Shown here piece after piece: positions 8,931 to 19,163 of a stretch of 64,000 nucleotides of DNA. The DNA is from Parahoeflea halophila (GTDB lineage Bacteria > Pseudomonadota > Alphaproteobacteria > Rhizobiales > Rhizobiaceae). A program made the translations under genes and the position numbers. The stretch spans positions 124,001-188,000 of the forward strand of contig NZ_OCPC01000002.1 in NCBI RefSeq assembly GCF_900220985.1, read 5' to 3'. Below the pieces are notes generated by a model that saw only the letters and a program-made list of their open reading frames with translations, made no database searches and was not told the DNA's origin. Each line of letters opens with the position of its first letter. The first letter of the stretch is position 1.

Positions 8931-9671
8931 TTAGGAAATGAGGCCAAGCCGGAAAGCGATTGCCACCACATGATGGCGGTTTTTCGCATTCAGTTTGTCC
9001 TGGATGCCGTTCATGTACCAGTCGACGGTATGCGCCGAGAGCCCGAGCGTGGCTCCCATCTCGTTCGAGGTCATGCCGTATCCCAGATATTCCAGTGTTT
9101 CCATTTCGCGGCGGGTCAACGCCACCGAAACCGGGCGGCTCAGGCGCTCGTGCGCGTCCGGATCAAGGGCTTCGAGCAGCTCCCAGAAAGCCTTCTTGGA
9201 CAGCGCATCCATCATCGCCATCTGCGAAGGAGAAAGCTCGACCGGGCGGCCGGCGACCGTCAACACTCCGACGAGCCCGCGACGCCCGTGGACGGGAAAC
9301 ACATAGCCGTCCTCAAGCCCGAATCGCCGCGCATCAACCATCATCCGTTCCATGCGCTTGTAGTGCGAATCCTCCTGGAAAGCCTCCATCGCGTCGCGCC
9401 AGCGGTAGCCGCGCTGGCTGTGACCGAGATAGCGAACAATGGGGTCTACGGCCGCATATTTGCGTTTGACATACAGTTCGGGCCAGCCCTTCGGCCATTT
9501 CCCTTCAAGCATGATATCCCATGCCTGGCTCTCGGGTCCGGGCTGCCTGACAAGTGTGAAATAGTCAAACCCGAGCTCGTTGATGACATTGCTGATTCGG
9601 TTGCGGATGCTCTCTGCGCCTTCCTCTTCGTTTCTCTTCGTTTCAAGAAACTGCAGAACGGCGTTCATCAT
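8931..9671 (-). CDS. LuxR-type transcriptional regulator with acyl-homoserine-lactone-binding domain
   Basis: The 246-residue protein has an N-terminal autoinducer-binding domain and a C-terminal LuxR helix-turn-helix (LTRREMETLEYL; SNEMGATLGLSAHTVDWY). Residues corresponding to the ligand-pocket set of TraR are all visible: Trp63, Tyr67, Asp76-Pro77, Trp91 and Gly122. Lactone binding is therefore plausible. Start at ATG 9669-9671, with GGAGGG seven bases upstream; a longer frame adds 24 residues of no family character. No luxI-like synthase is present in the window, so it is either an orphan receptor or its synthase lies elsewhere. It reads towards pyc on the same strand with an 86-base gap. 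Whether it regulates pyc is inference. Confidence 0.88.
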   Translation of the reverse strand: MMNAVLQFLETKRNEEEGAESIRNRISNVINELGFDYFTLVRQPGPESQAWDIMLEGKWPKGWPELYVKRKYAAVDPIVRYLGHSQRGYRWRDAMEAFQEDSHYKRMERMMVDARRFGLEDGYVFPVHGRRGLVGVLTVAGRPVELSPSQMAMMDALSKKAFWELLEALDPDAHERLSRPVSVALTRREMETLEYLGYGMTSNEMGATLGLSAHTVDWYMNGIQDKLNAKNRHHVVAIAFRLGLIS

Positions 9672-9818
9672 CGTGGTTCCCTCCAAAAGATCTAATTCAG
9701 CATTCGAAATCAAAAAAGTATTGAGCAGCAAAAACAGGTTCACCTTGATATTGTAATCCTAAATCTTGCAGTTGCGCCACATTTTCTTTGCAATCCTCCC
9801 ACGAGAGAAACTCGCACA

Positions 9819-9856
9819 GCAAAAAGCCGGCCCGCACAAGTGGTGTGGGCCGGCTT
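9819..9856 (-). terminator. Rho-independent terminator of the adh operon
   Basis: A 14-bp stem (9824-9837 with 9843-9856, one G-U pair) and a five-base loop are followed on the minus strand by five T. It lies about 30 bases past the stop of the iron alcohol dehydrogenase, the last gene of the TRAP/ligase operon. Confidence 0.85.
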
Positions 9857-9885
9857 GACTTGAGTGACCAAAGCGGTTCCGGGAT

Positions 9886-11031
9886 CTAGATGCAGGCTTC
9901 GAACAGCTCCTTGGTGTTTTCGCTCGTCAGCGTAACCGGGTTACCGCCGGCACTCGGGTCTTCCAGTGCCATCGCGGTCATCTCGTCAATACGGTCGCGA
10001 CCGACGCCCAGTTCGGCCAGTTTGTCGGGCACACCGAGGTCGGCCCTGAGCTTCATCACGTAATCGTAAAACCCGTCAAAACCGCCGTCGATTCCCATAT
10101 AGGATGCCGCGCGGGCGATACGGTCCTCGATCGCCGGGCGGTTCATCTTGAGAACCGGGGGCATCACCACCGCATTGGTCATGCCGTGGTGGGTGTTGTA
10201 GACAGCGCCGATTGGATGCGACAGCGCATGAATGGCGCCGAGGCCTTTCTGAAACGCGACCGCACCCATGGCAGCGGCGCTCATCATTTCCGCGCGGGCA
10301 TCGAGATTCGAGCCGTCGGCAATGACGAGTGGCAGGTTTTCCTTGACCAGCCGCATGCCTTCGAGCGCGATGCCCTGGCTCATCGGGTGATAGAAGGGCG
10401 AGGAATAGGCTTCCAGGCAATGCGCGAACGCATCCATGCCGGTGCCCACCGTGATGATCTTCGGCATGCCGACCGTCAGTTCCGGGTCGCAGATTGTGAC
10501 CGCCGGAAGCAGCTTCGGGTGGAAGATGATCTTCTTGACATGGGTAACCGAGTTGGTCAGCACGCCGGCCCGGCCGACCTCGGATCCCGTCCCGGCTGTT
10601 GTCGGCACGGCAATGATCGGAGCAATGGCGCTGGCGTCGGCCCGGGTCCACCAGTCACCGATATCCTCGAAGTCCCACACCGGACGGGCCTGCCCGGCTT
10701 GGAACGCGATCAGCTTGCCGAGATCGAGGCCCGAGCCGCCGCCGAAAGCGATCACGCCGTCATGGCCGCCGCTCTTGAACATGGCGACGCCGGCTTCCAG
10801 GTTCTTCTCGTTCGGATTGGGATCGACTTCCGAGAACATCGCACGGCCCAGACCGGCAGCTTCAAGCAGTTCAAGCGCATTGATCGTGATCGGCAGCGAA
10901 GCGAGCCCGCGGTCTGTCACCAGCAGCGGCCTCTTCATGCCCGCCGCAGCGCAGGCTTCGGCAAGTTCGGAAATGCGACCGGCACCGAAACGGATTGCGG
11001 TGGGATAGGACCAGTTGGCGCGGGGGCTCAT
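9886..11031 (-). CDS. Iron-containing alcohol dehydrogenase
   Basis: The 381-residue protein is a group III (Fe-dependent) alcohol dehydrogenase that interconverts an alcohol and an aldehyde with NAD(P). The nucleotide-binding GGGSGLDLGK, the TTAGTGSEV loop, MDAFAHCLEAYSS and the metal-ligand stretch ALSHPIGAVYNTHHGMTNA are present in order. Start is ATG 11029-11031, overlapping the stop of the aldehyde dehydrogenase gene by four bases (ATGA), which implies translational coupling. It is the last gene of the seven-gene operon. The pairing with an aldehyde dehydrogenase suggests two-step oxidation of an alcohol to an acid. The substrate is unknown; an amino alcohol already bound to glutamate is my inference from the operon. 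Confidence 0.9.
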   Translation of the reverse strand: MSPRANWSYPTAIRFGAGRISELAEACAAAGMKRPLLVTDRGLASLPITINALELLEAAGLGRAMFSEVDPNPNEKNLEAGVAMFKSGGHDGVIAFGGGSGLDLGKLIAFQAGQARPVWDFEDIGDWWTRADASAIAPIIAVPTTAGTGSEVGRAGVLTNSVTHVKKIIFHPKLLPAVTICDPELTVGMPKIITVGTGMDAFAHCLEAYSSPFYHPMSQGIALEGMRLVKENLPLVIADGSNLDARAEMMSAAAMGAVAFQKGLGAIHALSHPIGAVYNTHHGMTNAVVMPPVLKMNRPAIEDRIARAASYMGIDGGFDGFYDYVMKLRADLGVPDKLAELGVGRDRIDEMTAMALEDPSAGGNPVTLTSENTKELFEACI

Positions 11032-12416
11032 GCGGATTTCTTTCTCAGATGGTAGGATTTGGGACGGGTGAGATTGTGGAAGCCGATTTCCGACAGCGAG
11101 CCGCCGCGGCCGGTGGCCTTGCAGCCGGTCCAGCACAGCGCCGGGTCGAGATAGTCGGCCCGGTTCATGAACACGGTGCCGGTCTCGATCTCGTCGCCGA
11201 TGCGCGCGGCGCGCCCTGCATCATTGGTCCACAGCGAGGCGGTGAGGCCGAACTGGCAATCATTCATCAGCGCCAGCGCCTGCTCATCACTGTCGACCGG
11301 CATGATGCCGACAACCGGACCGAAACTCTCGTCGCGCATCACCCGCATGTCGTGGGTCACATCGACCAGCACCTGCGGCATCAGATAGGCACCGCCGTCA
11401 TCGGCCGGATAGTCTTTCGGATCGATCAGGCCACGTGCGCCCTGGGCAATCGCCTCTTCGGTCTGGGTACGGACTTCCTTGGCAAACCGTACATTCGCCA
11501 TAGGCCCGATGGTGGTTTCGGGATCGAGTGGATTGCCGAGCTTGAGACCGGAAGAGACCCAGGCCGCCGCCTTCTCGACGAAGGCATCGTAAAGCGGGCG
11601 CGCGATGTAGAGCCGCTCGATGCCGCAGCAGCACTGGCCGGCATTGAACATGGCCCCATCCATCAGCGTGTCGACGGCCCAGTCGAGATCGGCGTCCTCC
11701 ATCACATAACCGGGGTCCTTGCCGCCGAGCTCCAGCCCGAGACCGGTGAAGGTCCCGGCAGCAGCCCGCTCGATCGCCTTGCCGCCGCCCACCGAACCGG
11801 TAAAGTTGATGAAGTCGAAGCTTCCCGAGGAAATCAGTTTTTCGGTGCCCGGGTGATCCAGGAACAGGTTGATGAACACGTCCTCCGGCAGCCCGGCCTC
11901 GGTGAAGGCACGAACCATGCGCTCACCGACCAGCAGCGTCTGCGTCGCGTGTTTGAGCACCACGGTGTTGCCGGCGATCAGCGCGGGAACAACCGTGTTG
12001 ATCGCAGTCATGTAGGGATAGTTCCACGGCGCCACCACAAACACCACGCCGTGCGGGGCGCGTTCGATTCGGCGCTCGAACTGCGCCGAGTTCTCGATCT
12101 CGATCGGCGCCAGTGCCCGCTGGGCGATTTCGGCCATGTAGTTGCTGCGCTCGTTGACGCCGCCGAACTCGCCGCCATAGCGGACCGGACGGCCCATCAT
12201 CCAGGCCAGTTCCGGCACCACTTCGTCACTCATCTCGTTGAGCCGGGCAACGCCTGCGCGGACCAGCTTGATGCGCTCTTCCAGCGGCCGCCGGGCCCAG
12301 CCCTTCTGCGCCTTGCGCGACCGGGCGACAGCCGCTGCGGCGTCATCGACGCCCATGACCGGGCGTTCGGCGTAGACCGACCCGTCAACCGGCGATATCA
12401 GTTTCAAACTGCTCAT
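11028..12416 (-). CDS. NAD(P)-dependent aldehyde dehydrogenase
   Basis: The 462-residue enzyme oxidises an aldehyde to a carboxylic acid. It shows the family's VVAPWNYPY, NFTGSVGGGKAI, the general base Glu in LELGGKDP, the catalytic Cys within NAGQCCCGIER, and the ESFGPVVGI segment near the C-terminus. Three consecutive Cys at the active site are within normal variation. It follows the glutamine-synthetase-like gene by 73 bases and overlaps the alcohol dehydrogenase by four. In the gamma-glutamyl putrescine route of E. coli an enzyme of this family (PuuC) does the corresponding step, which makes the neighbourhood informative, but sequence alone does not give its substrate. Confidence 0.92.
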   Translation of the reverse strand: MSSLKLISPVDGSVYAERPVMGVDDAAAAVARSRKAQKGWARRPLEERIKLVRAGVARLNEMSDEVVPELAWMMGRPVRYGGEFGGVNERSNYMAEIAQRALAPIEIENSAQFERRIERAPHGVVFVVAPWNYPYMTAINTVVPALIAGNTVVLKHATQTLLVGERMVRAFTEAGLPEDVFINLFLDHPGTEKLISSGSFDFINFTGSVGGGKAIERAAAGTFTGLGLELGGKDPGYVMEDADLDWAVDTLMDGAMFNAGQCCCGIERLYIARPLYDAFVEKAAAWVSSGLKLGNPLDPETTIGPMANVRFAKEVRTQTEEAIAQGARGLIDPKDYPADDGGAYLMPQVLVDVTHDMRVMRDESFGPVVGIMPVDSDEQALALMNDCQFGLTASLWTNDAGRAARIGDEIETGTVFMNRADYLDPALCWTGCKATGRGGSLSEIGFHNLTRPKSYHLRKKSA

Positions 12417-12489
12417 TGCTTGGTCTCCATCTGGCGGCCCGCAAGTGTCCTGCAGCGCCGGCCGTCACTCCTATTGATGTCGTCTCCCG

Positions 12490-13854
12490 TCAGGCGCGCT
12501 CGAACCCGCGGGCTATTTCCCAGTCGGTCACGGCCTTGTCGAATTCTTCCTGTTCCCATTCGGCGCAGCGGACATAGTGATCGATGACAGCGTCACCCAT
12601 CGCTTCACGCAGCATCTTGGACTTGCGCAGGGTCTCGGTCGAGGCCCTTAGCGTCGAGGGAATGTGCTTGGCACTCTCGCTCTCGTAGATGTCGCCGGTG
12701 GTCGGCGGCGCCAGTTCGAGCTTGTCCTCGATGCCCTTGATGCCGGCAGCCAGCAGGGCCGCCTGTGCGAGATAGGGGTTCATGTCCGAGCCACCGATGC
12801 GGCACTCGACGCGAACCGCCTTGGTGCCTTCGCCGCAGAGACGGAAGCCGGCAGTGCGGTTGTCGACCGACCAGACCGTACGGGTGGGTGCGAAGCTGCC
12901 CTTCATGAAGCGCTTGTAGCTGTTGACATAGGGCGCCATGAACCAGGTGTAATCCGACGCATAGGTGATCAGCCCGGCCATGAAATGCCGCATCAGCTGC
13001 GACATTCCGTGCTCGCCGTTTTCATCGCGGAACGCCGGGGTCTTGCCCTGCCACAGCGACATGTGCACATGCGACGAGGAGCCGACCTTCTTCGGGTTCC
13101 ATTTCGGCAGGAACGTCACCGAACGGCCATGCGCCCAGGCGATCTCCTTGACCGCATGCTTGGCAATGGTGTGATGGTCGGCACAATCAAGCGCTTCCGC
13201 ATAGCGGATGTTGAGCTCTTCCTGGCCGGTTTCGGCCTCGCCCTTCGAATTCTCGACCGGAATGCCGGCCGCAAAGAGGTGGTTGCGCACCGGGCGCATG
13301 ATGCCCTCTTCCTTGGTCGTCTGCAGGATATGGTAATCCTCGTTATAGGCGCTGATTGGCGTCAGCTCGCGGTAGCCTGACCGGGCCAGATCACGGAAGC
13401 TCTGCTCGAACAGGAAGAATTCCAGCTCGGTGGCCATCATCGCGTCGTAACCGAGCGCCTTCAGCCGGGCGATCTGGGTTTTCAGGATCTGGCGCGGCGA
13501 CTGCGGCACCGGCTCGTGACTGTTATGGTCGAGCAGGTCACACAGCACCATCGCCGTACCTTCGAGCCAGGGCACGCGGCGCAGCGTCGACAGATCCGGC
13601 TTCATCACGTAGTCGCCGTAGCCCGCCCGCCAGCTGGTGGTGGCATAGCCATCCGGCGTCGCCATTTCGAGGTCGGTTGCCAGCATGTAGTTGCAGCAAT
13701 GGGTTTCCTCATGGCTCGAATCGATGAAGTTCTGAACATGGAACCGCTTGCCCATCAACCGGCCCTGCATGTCGACGCAGCACACCAGAATGGTGTCGAT
13801 GTCGCCCGACTTGGCAGCTGATTTCAACGCGTCGAAGGAAAGGTTACCGGCCAT
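12490..13854 (-). CDS. Glutamine-synthetase-family ligase (probable gamma-glutamyl-amine synthetase)
   Basis: The 454-residue protein has the glutamine synthetase fold in the PuuA-like size class. It shows metal-binding Glu residues in ATELEFFLFE, GEAETGQEELNIRYAEALD, the His in GSSSHVHMSLW, and an Arg-rich substrate and nucleotide loop NRTAGFRLCGEGTKAVRVECR. Such enzymes ligate an amine to the gamma-carboxyl of glutamate with ATP. The N-terminus lacks the regulatory features of true GlnA, and no nitrogen-regulation genes are near. The gene sits between a TRAP binding protein and two dehydrogenases, so ammonium assimilation is an unlikely role. The amine substrate cannot be read from the sequence. 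Confidence 0.88.
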   Translation of the reverse strand: MAGNLSFDALKSAAKSGDIDTILVCCVDMQGRLMGKRFHVQNFIDSSHEETHCCNYMLATDLEMATPDGYATTSWRAGYGDYVMKPDLSTLRRVPWLEGTAMVLCDLLDHNSHEPVPQSPRQILKTQIARLKALGYDAMMATELEFFLFEQSFRDLARSGYRELTPISAYNEDYHILQTTKEEGIMRPVRNHLFAAGIPVENSKGEAETGQEELNIRYAEALDCADHHTIAKHAVKEIAWAHGRSVTFLPKWNPKKVGSSSHVHMSLWQGKTPAFRDENGEHGMSQLMRHFMAGLITYASDYTWFMAPYVNSYKRFMKGSFAPTRTVWSVDNRTAGFRLCGEGTKAVRVECRIGGSDMNPYLAQAALLAAGIKGIEDKLELAPPTTGDIYESESAKHIPSTLRASTETLRKSKMLREAMGDAVIDHYVRCAEWEQEEFDKAVTDWEIARGFERA

Positions 13855-13901
13855 GTGTTCTGATCCTGATGTGATGCCCCGGGGGGCCTGGATTTCGTCA
13901 G

Positions 13902-13945
13902 GCGCTGTAGCGCCAATTCGCCCCCCGGCGCAAGCCGGGAGGCGG
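13902..13945 (-). other. Tandem hairpins between dctP and the ligase gene
   Basis: Two inverted repeats occupy the 111-base gap. One is a six-base stem at 13902-13907/13909-13914. The other is a stronger 11-base stem with one mismatch at 13919-13929/13934-13944 around a four-base loop. No T-run follows on the minus strand. This looks like an intercistronic attenuating or mRNA-protecting structure that would favour expression of the binding protein over downstream genes, rather than a full terminator. Confidence 0.45.
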
Positions 13946-13965
13946 CAGTCTCAAGCGGTTGCGGC

Positions 13966-15021
13966 TCAGCTTTCGCCGTAGGGGAAGCCGGCCGCGTTGA
14001 TCACCTTGTTGTACTCCTTGAAGATCGAGATGACCTTGGCCTTGGTTTCGCTTTCCGCGGCCACTTCATCCCAGAACTTCACCGCAGCGTCCTCGACCTG
14101 CTTCCAGTCCGATGCCGGAACCGACCGCAGCTTGAGCTTGTCGCCGGTGGCACGGAGCTTGGCTTCGCCGCCCCAGTACCACTGGTTGCGATAGGTGTGG
14201 GTTGCTTCCATGCAGGAGATATAGAGCTGCTTTAGATGCTCCGGCAGCGCGTTCCACTTTTCCTCATTGGCAAACCAGGAACCGATCCAGGCGCCCGAGA
14301 TGTTGTTGGTCAGGAAGTAGTCGGTCACATCGGCCCAGCCCACGGTGTAGTCTTCGGTAATTCCCGACCACGACATGCCGTCGAGCTCGCCGGTCTGCAC
14401 CGCAACTTCGGCATCTTCGTAAGGAATCGACACCGGAACCACGCCGAACTGTGTCAGGAAGCGACCAGCGGTCGGGAAGGTGTAGAGCTTCAGGCCGTCG
14501 AGATCGGCGACGCTGGTGATTTCCTTCTTGGTGTTGAAGTTGCACGGATCCTGACCCGCTGCCGAGAGCCAGACAACGCCGGTGCCGGAATAGGCGTCGC
14601 GCCAGATGTCGGCCAGGCCGTATTGCTGGAACAGCACCGGCACATCGAGGATCGAGCGGGTGGCAAACGGGAAGTAGCCCCCGAACAGACCCACCTCGAC
14701 CGGAGAAGCCATCGAATCATCGTCGGAATGCACCGCATCGATTGTGCCCGCCTGCATGGCGCGGAACAACTCGCCGGTGGGAACGATCTGGTCGGCAAAG
14801 AACAGCTCGATCACCATTTCGCCATTGGCTGCCTTGTTGAAGGCATCGACGAAAGGCTGGGTCACATACTGGCCGAGCGTGGCTCCCGCATAGGTCTGCA
14901 TGCGCCAGCGGATCGGTTCCTGCGCGATGGCCGCCGGAGCTGCCAGGGTCGTCCCTGCTGCTGCACCGGCTGCAACACCACCGGCCTTGGTGAGAAATTG
15001 ACGCCTCTTGAGATTGCTCAT
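13966..15021 (-). CDS. TRAP transporter solute-binding protein (DctP family, twin-arginine signal)
   Basis: The 351-residue protein begins with a Tat-type signal (LKRRQFLTKAGG, then an Ala/Gly-rich core, cleavage near AIAQ). That places it in the periplasm as the ligand-binding part of a TRAP carrier. The mature part shows the family's WRMQTYAG start, VIELFFADQIVPTGELFRAMQAGTIDAV, and DLDGLKLYTFPTAGRFLTQFG. The signal type and pattern resemble the mannitol/chloroaromatic branch of DctP. TRAP ligands are mostly organic acids, so a carboxylate-bearing ligand is likely but not proved. Start at ATG 15019-15021 is preceded by AGGAGA. It is followed by hairpins and the ligase gene. Confidence 0.92.
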   Translation of the reverse strand: MSNLKRRQFLTKAGGVAAGAAAGTTLAAPAAIAQEPIRWRMQTYAGATLGQYVTQPFVDAFNKAANGEMVIELFFADQIVPTGELFRAMQAGTIDAVHSDDDSMASPVEVGLFGGYFPFATRSILDVPVLFQQYGLADIWRDAYSGTGVVWLSAAGQDPCNFNTKKEITSVADLDGLKLYTFPTAGRFLTQFGVVPVSIPYEDAEVAVQTGELDGMSWSGITEDYTVGWADVTDYFLTNNISGAWIGSWFANEEKWNALPEHLKQLYISCMEATHTYRNQWYWGGEAKLRATGDKLKLRSVPASDWKQVEDAAVKFWDEVAAESETKAKVISIFKEYNKVINAAGFPYGES

Positions 15022-15064
15022 GCTGTTCTCCTTTTTGGTTTCGTCTTCTTCGTATCTGCTCACG

Positions 15065-16399
15065 TCAGCCCCGGAGTTTGCCGCGGAATTGCTCCGGCAG
15101 CCACAATGCGATTTCCGGGAACATCATCACGATCACCAATGTGAGCAACATGACCGCGACGAAAGGAATGACGGACTGATATATGTGACGCAGCTTGATT
15201 TCCGGCGGGGCCATGGCCCGCATCAGGAATAGATTGTAGCCGAACGGCGGCGTCATGTAGGCGATCTGGCAGGTGATCGTATAGAGAATACCGTACCAGA
15301 CCAGATCAAAGCCGAGGATCTTGACCAGCGGCACATAGAGCGGCGCGACGATCACCAGCATCGCCGTGTCATCGAGAAATGTGCCCATCAGCAGGAAGCT
15401 GAGTTGCATCAGGATCAGCACATGCCATGGATCGAGACCGAGCTGTCCGAGGAAGAAATTCTCGATCGCCCGCACCGCGCCCAACCCGTCGAACACTGCG
15501 CCAAAGCACAGCGCAGCCAGGATGATCCACATGAACATGCAGGAGATGCCAAGCGTCTTGCGCATGACATTTTCCATCACTTCGCGGTTCAGCCGGCCCT
15601 TGATGAAGGCCGCCGCCATCGAAGCCAGCGCGCCGACGGCGGAACTTTCCACCAGGCTGGTGTAGCCCATCAGGAACAGCCCGTTCATCAGGAAGAAGAT
15701 CATGAATGGCAGGAACCCGGCGCGCAGCAGGCCGATCCGCTCTTTCCAGCTGATCGCGTCGCGCTCGTCCTTGGGCAGCGGCGGGCCGAGATGCGGCTGC
15801 AGCTGGCAGCGCACGAAAATGTAGAGAATGAACAGCCCGGCCATCAACAGGCCCGGAAACACGCCCGCAAGCCACAACTGGCTCACCGGCTGCCGGGCAA
15901 TCATGCCGTATAGCACCAGCACCACCGAGGGCGGGATCAGGATCCCTAGCGACGAGCCGCCTTGGATCACCCCGGTGATCATTATCTTGTCGTAATTGCG
16001 CCGAAGCAGTTCCGGCAGCGCGATTGTGGCGCCGATCGCCATTCCCGCCACCGACAGCCCGTTCATGGCCGAGATCACCACCATCAGGAAGATCGTGCCG
16101 ATCGCCAGCCCTCCCGGCACGGGGCCGAACCAGACATGGAACATGCGGTAAAGGTCGTCGGCGATCCGGCTTTCCGACAGCATGTAGCCCATGAAGATGA
16201 ACATCGGCAGCGTCAGCAGCGGATACCATTTCATCAGCTTGATCGACTGCGCGAATGCGATCTCGACGCCACCGGTGCCCCACAAAGGAAGCGCTGCGAT
16301 CACCGCAACCGCGCCAATGACGCCGAACACCCGCTGTCCGGTCAAAAGCAGCATCATCATCGCGGCGAACATGAAAAGGGCGATAAGTTCGTAGCTCAC
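15065..16399 (-). CDS. TRAP transporter large permease (DctM)
   Basis: This 444-residue inner-membrane protein has about 12 hydrophobic helices and is the ion-coupled transport subunit. Typical segments are LPMFIFMGYMLSES, GGLAIGTIFLMVVISAMNGLS, GSSLGILIPPSVVLVLYGMI and the C-terminal TPPFGYNLFLM. I start at GTG 16397-16399 (VSYELIALFMF). This overlaps the small-permease stop by four bases, the usual dctQ-dctM coupling. The longer frame upstream only reads through dctQ in another phase. With the neighbouring dctQ and dctP it makes a complete three-part importer. Confidence 0.92.
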   Translation of the reverse strand: MSYELIALFMFAAMMMLLLTGQRVFGVIGAVAVIAALPLWGTGGVEIAFAQSIKLMKWYPLLTLPMFIFMGYMLSESRIADDLYRMFHVWFGPVPGGLAIGTIFLMVVISAMNGLSVAGMAIGATIALPELLRRNYDKIMITGVIQGGSSLGILIPPSVVLVLYGMIARQPVSQLWLAGVFPGLLMAGLFILYIFVRCQLQPHLGPPLPKDERDAISWKERIGLLRAGFLPFMIFFLMNGLFLMGYTSLVESSAVGALASMAAAFIKGRLNREVMENVMRKTLGISCMFMWIILAALCFGAVFDGLGAVRAIENFFLGQLGLDPWHVLILMQLSFLLMGTFLDDTAMLVIVAPLYVPLVKILGFDLVWYGILYTITCQIAYMTPPFGYNLFLMRAMAPPEIKLRHIYQSVIPFVAVMLLTLVIVMMFPEIALWLPEQFRGKLRG

Positions 16400-16923
16400 A
16401 GGCCAGCCTCGCTTGGATGGTTGACGCTGACGCCACGCAGAAAAAGTATGTCCCGGAACAGTTCGGCCGTGGCCTGCAACAGCATCAGCAGGACCCCGAT
16501 GACTGCGACGAGCTTGACCGGCCACATGTAAGGCCGCCACACCGAATGCGCCCGCTCGCCCCACTCGATGGCATAGGTGGTGCTCGAAATGCCGCCATAG
16601 AGCAGCACGCAGAGATAGAAGATCAGAAACAGCACGGTGACCGAATCCACCGCCGCCTTGCGCCGCGGCGACCAGGAACCGTAGATCAGATCCATCCGCA
16701 CATGGTCCCCCATCTGCATCGAATAGGCGCCGCCGAGAAGGTAGTAGCCGACCATGATGAACTGCGCGAACTCGAGCGTCCACAAGGCCGGAGTCCCGGC
16801 GTATTTGGACACCGAAGACCAGAACAGCACCCCCATCAGCGCGAAGATAAGATACATCACAAAACGTCCGACGCGCCGGTTGAAGGCGTCGACCCTGCGG
16901 ATGTAGCTTTCAAGGAACCTCAT
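16396..16923 (-). CDS. TRAP transporter small permease (DctQ)
   Basis: The 175-residue membrane protein has four predicted helices and the DctQ pattern (FVMYLIFALMGVLFWSSVSKY; FIMVGYYLLGGAYSMQMGDHVRMDL). The GDHVRMDL motif is characteristic of the family. I start at ATG 16921-16923 (MRFLESYIRR), which leaves 57 bases to the upstream amidohydrolase gene. It overlaps dctM by four bases. It pairs with DctM in the inner membrane. Confidence 0.88.
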   Translation of the reverse strand: MRFLESYIRRVDAFNRRVGRFVMYLIFALMGVLFWSSVSKYAGTPALWTLEFAQFIMVGYYLLGGAYSMQMGDHVRMDLIYGSWSPRRKAAVDSVTVLFLIFYLCVLLYGGISSTTYAIEWGERAHSVWRPYMWPVKLVAVIGVLLMLLQATAELFRDILFLRGVSVNHPSEAGL

Positions 16924-16980
16924 GCCGGAACGTCTCCCGGACAGCCGGGCTGACCCAACAGGCCGGCCGGACTGGCACAC

Positions 16981-17775
16981 TTATGTATCATCACGCCCCC
17001 CTTCCGGGATCAGCCGCTCCAGCGACATTTCAAGAAGTTCCGCGACCCGCGCGGCCCAGGCAGCCTGGCCGGTCTCGTCGAAGATGAGATCGTTGCGGAT
17101 CTCAAGCATGACGTTGGCAATTTGCCTGGTCAATCCGTGGCGTTTGAGCGTGTGGGTCACGCCATCCTGCGGCCCATAGGGGTAGTTGCGCAAGACCTGA
17201 TCGAGCTTCAGCGCTTGAGCCGCGTCCAGCATGGCGTCGGCCAACCGGCTATCCTCATCATGCAGGATGCCCAGATGCCCGTCGCGCGGCGTGCCGAAAT
17301 AGATCGGCGTGAACGAATGAACCGTCACCAGCACAACGTCGCGCCCTTCCGACAGCCGCCCGTCGACCAGCGTGTCGATGGCTTGGTGAAACGGATGATA
17401 CAGCGCCTCGGCACGACGCGCCTTGTCTTCGGCGCTGAGCCCGGCATTGCCCGGCACGTCGTAGATTTCGGAGCGCTCGGGATAGGCGCCGGCGGCTTCC
17501 GGCGGGCGGTTGCAGTCATAGGCCAGCCGCGAGAACCGTTGTGAGACCAGTGACGCATCGAGCCTGTCCGACAACATTTCGGCGACACGCTGCGCACCGA
17601 TGTCCCAGGCGATGTGGCTTTCGAGTGCGGCCTCATCGAGACCCATGGTTCCAAGGGCCTTGGGCATCGTCCTCGACGCATGCTCGCAGATCAGCACGAT
17701 ACTGCTGGTCCCCTCGGGACGGCGTACAGCAAAAGCCGGTCCTTCTGATGGTGCGATCAGCCTGTCATCATGCAT
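16981..17775 (-). CDS. N-formylglutamate amidohydrolase family protein
   Basis: The 264-residue protein belongs to the zinc-dependent N-formylglutamate deformylase family. It has ICEHASRTMPKALG near residue 29-42, AWDIGAQ, SRLAYDCNRPPEA, and VTVHSFTPIYFG with the second His. The family hydrolyses an amide on glutamate, classically N-formylglutamate in histidine breakdown. No hut gene is in this window. It is the first gene of the operon with TRAP subunits, a gamma-glutamyl ligase and two dehydrogenases, and it faces the RpiR regulator. I infer that it may release glutamate from a gamma-glutamyl amide formed by the ligase, replacing the PuuD-type hydrolase of other routes; this is untested. 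Confidence 0.85.
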   Translation of the reverse strand: MHDDRLIAPSEGPAFAVRRPEGTSSIVLICEHASRTMPKALGTMGLDEAALESHIAWDIGAQRVAEMLSDRLDASLVSQRFSRLAYDCNRPPEAAGAYPERSEIYDVPGNAGLSAEDKARRAEALYHPFHQAIDTLVDGRLSEGRDVVLVTVHSFTPIYFGTPRDGHLGILHDEDSRLADAMLDAAQALKLDQVLRNYPYGPQDGVTHTLKRHGLTRQIANVMLEIRNDLIFDETGQAAWAARVAELLEMSLERLIPEGGRDDT

Positions 17776-17831
17776 TTCGGTAACGGGTCCCTGCGAGCGG
17801 AAGCAGCGATTTCACGCTCGTAACATTGATT

Positions 17832-17872
17832 AGGATTGCCTCCATGTTGTCAATCCTGTAATTTTTATTACA
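17832..17872. promoter_or_regulatory. Palindromic operator in the RpiR/amidohydrolase divergent region
   Basis: Two overlapping inverted repeats fill the centre of this 126-base divergent region. TGTAAT-TTTT-ATTACA at 17857-17872 is a perfect 16-base palindrome of the form known for RpiR-family regulators such as HexR. AGGATTG (17832-17838) pairs with CAATCCT (17851-17857). The site lies about 30 bases before the RpiR start and about 80 before the operon start, well placed to control both. Binding by the adjacent RpiR protein is inference. Confidence 0.6.
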
Positions 17873-17901
17873 CAAACCGCCAAGCCGAACCGAGGGAAGC
17901 C

Positions 17902-18747
17902 ATGGCCATACGCGAACAGGTTCAGGCAGCGTTGGGCACATTGCCCGGCGCGGAAAAGAAGATCGCCCACGCTTTCCTCGCCAACTATCCCAGCATCGGC
18001 CTGTCGACGATCGCCGAACTTGCGGCCCTTGCCGGCACCAGCGCACCGACCGTACTGCGCTTCGTTGCCCGGCTCGGCTTTGAGTCCTATCCGGAGTTCC
18101 AGCGGGTCCTGCGCAACGACGTTCAGGCGCAATTGATGTCCCCGCTCGAACGCGCCCGCAGCACTGGCCCGGCGACAGAAAACCCGGCGCTCAAGGCCAG
18201 TTTCGCCAGCATCGCCGCCAATCTCGACGCCACCCTGAAGGCGGTTCCCGAAAGTGAGTTTGAGGCCGCCTGCGAGCTGCTGTCCGACCAGAAATCCGCC
18301 TGTCACCTCATCGGCGGGCGCTTTACCGACACCATCGCCAGCTACATGGCAGCCCATCTTCGGATCATTCGCCCCAATGTCCGGCATTTCGGTGGACAAA
18401 CCTCGACCTGGCGCGATCAGCTGCTCGATGTGCGACCCGGTGATGTGGTGGTGTTCTTCGATATTCGCCGTTACCAGTCCGACCTGGTCAGGCTCGGCGA
18501 ACTCATGGTTGAGCGCAAAGCCCGCATCGTGTTGATTACCGATCCCTGGCTGTCGCCGATTGCCCGCTCGGCGCGGGTGGTATTGCCCTGCGTGGTCGAT
18601 GCCAACCGCACCTGGGATTCGAGCATCGCGCTGATGGCGCTGGCCGAAGCGCTGATTGACCGGGTTTCCCGTTCCCTGTCCGAAAGCGCCCGCGCGCGCA
18701 TGCAGACCCTTGAGGACATCCACTGGAACAACCTGCCCGGTCGTTGA
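17902..18747 (+). CDS. RpiR-family transcriptional regulator
   Basis: The 281-residue protein has an N-terminal HTH_6 domain (EKKIAHAFLANYPSIGLSTI; SAPTVLRFVARLGF) at about residues 15-75. A C-terminal sugar-isomerase-type SIS domain follows (CHLIGGRFTD; PGDVVVFFDIRRYQSDLVRL; IVLITDPWLSPIARSA) at about 125-260. Start at ATG 17902 with GAGGGAA upstream; the frame extends 22 codons further without family character. It is divergent from the amidohydrolase/TRAP/ligase operon and is its most likely regulator, acting through the palindrome between them. SIS domains usually bind phosphosugars, which leaves the effector open. Confidence 0.9.
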   Translation: MAIREQVQAALGTLPGAEKKIAHAFLANYPSIGLSTIAELAALAGTSAPTVLRFVARLGFESYPEFQRVLRNDVQAQLMSPLERARSTGPATENPALKASFASIAANLDATLKAVPESEFEAACELLSDQKSACHLIGGRFTDTIASYMAAHLRIIRPNVRHFGGQTSTWRDQLLDVRPGDVVVFFDIRRYQSDLVRLGELMVERKARIVLITDPWLSPIARSARVVLPCVVDANRTWDSSIALMALAEALIDRVSRSLSESARARMQTLEDIHWNNLPGR

Positions 18748-18833
18748 TGCGCATTTGTCCGGTGGCGGCAGGACAGCGATCACGAAGACGTCCCATGCTT
18801 GCGCAAACCGGCGCTATCCACTACCCATCGGAT

Positions 18834-19163
18834 ATGGATCAGCAAGCCGCATTGGACGCATTTTCGGCCCTCAGTCAGGAAACCCGGCTTGCCGTGTTCC
18901 GCCTCCTGGTCGCCGCCGGCCCGGACGGCATGGCTTCGGGGGATATCGGTGAGCGCCTGAATGTCCGCCAGAACACCATGTCGACCAATCTCGGCATCCT
19001 GCTCAAGGCCGGCCTGGTCCGGCGCGAGCGTGATGGACGCAATGTCCGCTACCATGCCGATCACGCCGGCATCAGCGGCCTGCTCGGTTTTCTGCTGGAA
19101 GACTGCTGCGGCGGCAATCCCGAACTCTGCCAGCCGATCATCCGCCAGCTGTCCTGCACGTGA
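18834..19163 (+). CDS. ArsR-family transcriptional regulator
   Basis: The 109-residue protein is a winged-helix ArsR/SmtB regulator. It has DAFSALSQETRLAVFRLLV, the recognition helix RQNTMSTNLGILLKAGLV and the wing RRERDGRNVRYHAD. A C-terminal cluster DCCGGNPELC could bind a metal or metalloid. An ATG at 18795 would add 13 residues; neither start has a strong ribosome binding site. The gene begins about 85 bases after the RpiR gene on the same strand and is convergent with the next gene two bases beyond its stop. No arsenic-resistance genes are adjacent, so its target is unknown. Confidence 0.85.
   Translation: MDQQAALDAFSALSQETRLAVFRLLVAAGPDGMASGDIGERLNVRQNTMSTNLGILLKAGLVRRERDGRNVRYHADHAGISGLLGFLLEDCCGGNPELCQPIIRQLSCT

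Follow-up and report, generated by a model that had tools for sequence, protein, structure and literature searches.

The 64,000-nucleotide stretch of Parahoeflea halophila contig NZ_OCPC01000002.1 analysed here (positions 124,001 to 188,000 of the forward strand, referred to as the window) carries a minus-strand operon of seven genes at 9886-17775, all with open frames, which is considered here as a candidate system for ethanolamine uptake and gamma-glutamylation. In the order of transcription, the operon encodes an FGase-family (PF05013) hydrolase (16981..17775), the small permease DctQ (16396..16980), the large permease DctM (15065..16399) and the substrate-binding protein DctP (13966..15063, with an RR-containing leader) of a TRAP importer, a ligase with glutamine synthetase (GS) fold (12490..13854), an aldehyde dehydrogenase (ALDH; 11028..12416) and an iron-containing alcohol dehydrogenase (9886..11031). 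A gene for an RpiR-family regulator (17902..18747, plus strand) diverges from it. All matches to the Pfam families are above cut-off: FGase 142.6 bits, DctQ 70.3, DctM 219.4, DctP 78.5, Gln-synt_C 332.2, Aldedh 373.4, Fe-ADH 156.7 and, for the regulator, 42.7 for the RpiR HTH (HTH_6) and 68.2 for SIS. This agrees with an earlier sequence-only reading of the window, which had described a complete TRAP importer, a ligase, both dehydrogenases and an FGase-family protein in one operon with a divergent RpiR gene and a strong terminator.

The window has the gene order RpiR-GGAH-EtoV-EtoW-EtoX-ligase-ALDH-iron alcohol dehydrogenase, with RpiR divergent, and this is the order of the locus tags MED193_10021-10056 of Phaeobacter sp. 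MED193: RpiR, GGAH, EtoV, EtoW, EtoX, ETAGA, GAADDH, GETADH (PMC10132767). Judged from the figure legend, the two sets of eight genes show no difference in gene content. On phosphorylethanolamine, MED193 has higher levels of five of the proteins: the amidohydrolase, the binding protein, the ligase and the two dehydrogenases. Its EtoX has a measured affinity for ethanolamine (Kd 7.9 uM), while PE, glycerol phosphates and PC did not bind (PMC10132767). By analogy, DctQ, DctM and DctP would correspond to EtoV, EtoW and EtoX, the hydrolase may be named gamma-glutamylglycine amidohydrolase (GGAH, from MED193_10026), the ALDH would convert gamma-glutamyl-aminoacetaldehyde to gamma-glutamylglycine (from MED193_10051) and the alcohol dehydrogenase would be a gamma-glutamylethanolamide dehydrogenase (from MED193_10056). 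The same four enzyme families are found in the Csal_0678 cluster of Chromohalobacter salexigens, a gammaproteobacterium; a 2022 review tabulates them as PF00120, PF00465, PF00171 and PF05013, the last as gamma-glutamylglycine amidohydrolase (PMC9397018). A further relative in chemistry is the GlnA4 route proposed for Streptomyces coelicolor, for which the discussion names a last step by the formylglutamate-amidohydrolase family (PMC6529630). The gene content of that cluster differs: the figure legend names no TRAP importer but instead a putative transporter, a short-chain dehydrogenase, another regulator and a glutamine amidotransferase, the label given to orf5 (PMC6529630). The sequence-only reading had correctly arrived at a chain of ligase, two dehydrogenases and amidohydrolase acting on an amino alcohol taken up by a TRAP importer, but had not recognised it as a known pathway; for ethanolamine this chain is published for C. 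salexigens and Phaeobacter. The system is already known, since the pathway is in print with its FGase-type last step included (PMC10132767, PMC6529630, PMC9397018).

Among 177,635 distinct PDB sequences, the best match to DctP is one sequence common to the entries 4UAB and 4XF5 (E 1.7e-142), far ahead of the runner-up (E 4.6e-17); 202 of the 316 residues aligned to 4UAB are identical (64%). 4UAB is Csal_0678 of C. salexigens with bound ethanolamine; the ligand sits among aromatic side chains, with Glu220 holding it in place (PMC12410723). In the printed numbering of the 4UAB chain, there are only two Glu residues between 205 and 245, at 206 and 217; judging from the numbering offset, residue 217, which aligns with Glu237 of DctP, is probably the Glu220 of the paper. 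Both this Glu and the second Glu of the stretch are invariant in all 79 rows of an alignment that consists of the window protein, 4UAB and the proteins of 77 of 80 related loci. DctP is thus an orthologue of an ethanolamine-binding protein and, given this residue mapping, appears to have kept the ligand-holding Glu. Most TRAP proteins use an Arg to bind carboxylates, which Csal_0678 lacks; the commonest replacement is Phe (PMC4646407). The putative Arg-replacing position, as judged from the motif, is apparently Tyr194 in the window protein (Tyr in 78 of the 79 rows, Phe in 4UAB), and loss of the carboxylate-binding Arg is expected where the substrate has no carboxylate group. A review calls ethanolamine a surprising TRAP ligand, owing to its positive charge (PMC5812351). 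Because the binding protein decides the matter, the substrate of the operon can be predicted with high probability to be ethanolamine.

The best solved relative of the ligase is 5dm3 (E 9.2e-218), also a protein of C. salexigens. At the six catalytic-site positions tested (in GlnA numbering Glu129, Glu131, His269, Arg339, Glu357, Arg359) the ligase is invariant in all 71 rows of an alignment of the window protein with those of 70 loci. The position of the GS flap residue Glu327 is different: it is Phe321 in the window ligase, Phe in 70 and Trp in one of the 71 operonic rows, and Glu in a GlnA-like gene of the own genome (L004). Replacement of the flap Glu is in keeping with an acceptor that is an amine and not ammonia, and the protein is probably an ethanolamine gamma-glutamyl ligase (gamma-glutamylethanolamide synthetase). 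Identity with GlnA was rejected, as the ligase scores 253.3 bits against the TIGR00653 cut-off of 429.15 and lacks the flap Glu; the own genome has three further GS-family genes. PuuA, gamma-glutamylputrescine synthetase, was rejected as well (214.7 bits against the NF045547 cut-off of 650), so that 'PuuA-like', the term used in the sequence-only reading, holds only loosely. In the Puu pathway of E. coli, putrescine is glutamylated, oxidised and released, the last step by PuuD, a class-I-amidotransferase-type hydrolase; the glutamylation logic is alike, but the substrate is different and so is the hydrolase family.

The hydrolase resembles 2ODF (Atu2144; E 1.1e-78). It scores 25 bits against the HutG model TIGR02017 (cut-off 278.75) and was therefore rejected as an N-formylglutamate deformylase. 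The own genome (G000) has four PF05013 genes, and the three outside the operon all outscore the operonic one on the Pfam model; one of these paralogues, at L088, shares 34% identity with the hydrolase of the operon. A canonical EutBC ammonia-lyase route was rejected because no EutB was found: a search of the 99.99% complete genome gave no match to PF06751 at E <= 0.001, while the control, E. coli, was positive as the sole one among 14 genomes.

To describe conservation, we used the best 80 of at least 579 confirmed binding-protein relatives, a sample that favours close relatives because the loci are the best binding-protein matches. In 64 of these 80 loci the complete set of eight genes is found with order and orientation unchanged, indicating that the arrangement is not due to chance. 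A divergent RpiR gene lies beside the FGase gene in 73 loci. Eight loci are, judged from their ranges, cut by contig ends (L017, L026, L035, L054, L055, L057, L070, L074). In a sample of 151 genomes of the family, including the own, the binding protein is present in 74 (E <= 1e-100; presence only).

From these data, the locus is very probably the operon (RpiR/GGAH/EtoVWX/ETAGA/GAADDH/GETADH) by which a Hoeflea-like alphaproteobacterium takes up and gamma-glutamylates ethanolamine, converting it to glycine and glutamate. Beyond the orthology, synteny and active-site features described above, we infer the exact substrate of each enzyme and the role of the regulator as follows: EtoXVW would import ethanolamine, and the ligase would use ATP and glutamate to convert it to gamma-glutamylethanolamide. 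The iron alcohol dehydrogenase and then the ALDH would oxidise this product to gamma-glutamylglycine, from which the FGase-family hydrolase would free glycine and regenerate glutamate. RpiR would act at a palindrome in the intergenic region, probably keeping the genes repressed as long as neither ethanolamine nor an intermediate is available. In other organisms, ethanolamine binding has been shown for two EtoX orthologues, and the increase on phosphorylethanolamine for the five Phaeobacter proteins (PMC12410723, PMC10132767).

Several observations weigh against this assignment. ALDH was not detected in two of the 80 loci (L076 and L081; tblastn at E <= 1e-8, restricted to the locus), and six loci have the TRAP genes but neither an orthologous ligase nor the two dehydrogenases nearby (L028, L043, L071, L078, L079, L084). 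RpiR and FGase genes were detected in only two of these six, L078 and L079, and in none of the other four; L084 may be cut upstream. In these six loci, either other parts of the genome encode the enzymes or ethanolamine is metabolised by a different route. The ligase has Asp, as GlnA does, in the column of the ammonia-site residue Asp50 (GlnA numbering), albeit in a poorly alignable stretch, where the column is Asp in 27, Glu in 23, Pro in 16 and another residue in 5 of the 71 rows; the ammonia site was judged from the flap residue alone. Related amino alcohols may be imported too: 4XF5 is the complex with 2-amino-1-propanol. The remaining two points concern the literature. According to PMC10132767, which cites Vetting et al., the pathway has been 'demonstrated' both for C. 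salexigens and for Agrobacterium tumefaciens C58, whereas PMC6529630 describes that of C. salexigens as 'predicted in an in silico approach'. Hydrolysis of gamma-glutamylglycine by an FGase protein is, in the sources cited here, a prediction backed by co-induction and not by an enzyme assay.

The two loci with undetected ALDH are from Sulfitobacter (L076:7517-10015 and L081:11096-13677) and keep both the ligase and the iron alcohol dehydrogenase; another ALDH elsewhere may serve. L079 has a transposase-like open reading frame, named by eye, just downstream (11232-11903).

The same chemistry could operate with another small amino alcohol as the main physiological substrate, for instance 2-amino-1-propanol, which would yield alanine, and with ethanolamine as a secondary one. 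The enzyme set suits any primary amino alcohol and a single sequence is common to 4UAB and 4XF5 (the latter with 2-amino-1-propanol), but the increase of the orthologous Phaeobacter proteins on phosphorylethanolamine and the micromolar affinity of EtoX for ethanolamine make this alternative improbable. The analogues that MED193 EtoX left unbound were PE, glycerol phosphates and PC, and the passage on binding names no other amino alcohol (PMC10132767). Less probable still is the absence of any single pathway, with a glutamine synthetase and HutG adjacent by chance: the two families are often annotated as GS and N-formylglutamate deformylase, and the ligase has the Asp at the poorly alignable Asp50 position, but this is contradicted by the sub-cut-off scores of both proteins, the loss of the flap Glu, the paralogues of both families in the own genome and the synteny in relatives.

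For the proposed ethanolamine operon, a probable RpiR operator can be suggested. Between the operon and the divergent RpiR gene lies a 16-bp palindrome, TGTAATTTTTATTACA, at 17857-17872 (no strand assigned; TGTAAT-TTTT-ATTACA). It is the sole exact match to TGTAATNNNNATTACA in the own genome; two more places match with one mismatch. With the consensus taken from the window itself, 31 of 73 RpiR/GGAH regions have a site that agrees with it at 10 or more of its 12 fixed bases, a count that is inflated by common descent; among 3650 mononucleotide-shuffled regions the share is about 0.6%. Carriers are all 12 Hoeflea loci and 19 of the 61 others; the remaining 42 of the 73 regions have no such site, although several of them have other palindromes. 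RpiR is also the most diverged part seen among the fetched relatives: its identity to the window protein is 75-92% in the 12 Hoeflea loci and has a median of 37% (range 32-76%) in the 61 others. The start of RpiR is most likely ATG 17902 and not TTG 17836, because the longer version would place the palindrome inside the gene. The palindrome is likely the operator of RpiR, itself a probable local repressor kept in relatives. On balance, we lean towards RpiR being an ethanolamine-pathway repressor that recognises TGTAAT-N4-ATTACA, with the site marking a conserved alphaproteobacterial ethanolamine regulon. PMC10132767 joins RpiR, ethanolamine and TRAP transporter, with RpiR confined to the figure legend in the parts that concern this cluster, which do not describe the operator; it may already have been published in another paper.

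Several genes of the operon abut or overlap. The inferred GTG start of DctM at 16399 overlaps the stop of DctQ (GTGA), and the ATG of the alcohol dehydrogenase at 11031 overlaps the stop of ALDH (ATGA). For DctQ and DctP, the internal ATG codons at 16923 and 15021 are likelier starts than the first codons of the open frames. The operon ends at an intrinsic terminator on the minus strand (9824..9856), a hairpin followed by a T tract, with a minimum free energy of -32.3 kcal/mol compared with a mean of -20.0 for shuffled sequences (z -3.9; 1 of 200 shuffles as good); the 71-nt stretch that was folded includes a second small hairpin. A simple terminator scan did not have this hairpin among its sites, and a simple promoter scan returned 2 sites, with 3.2 expected by chance, none of them within the RpiR/GGAH gap. 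Two neighbouring regulators were named by eye: a LuxR-type protein between pyruvate carboxylase and the operon (8931-9743, minus strand), which has an HTH at its C terminus and, towards the N terminus, a part resembling autoinducer-binding domains, and a small ArsR-like protein directly 3' of RpiR (18744-19163, plus strand).

The reconstruction made from the raw sequence was sound, though it left the substrate unnamed. Apart from the candidate operator there is little new biology here; the finding assigns to this genome a named pathway for ethanolamine, which has been reported as a marine trait for recycling phospholipids.

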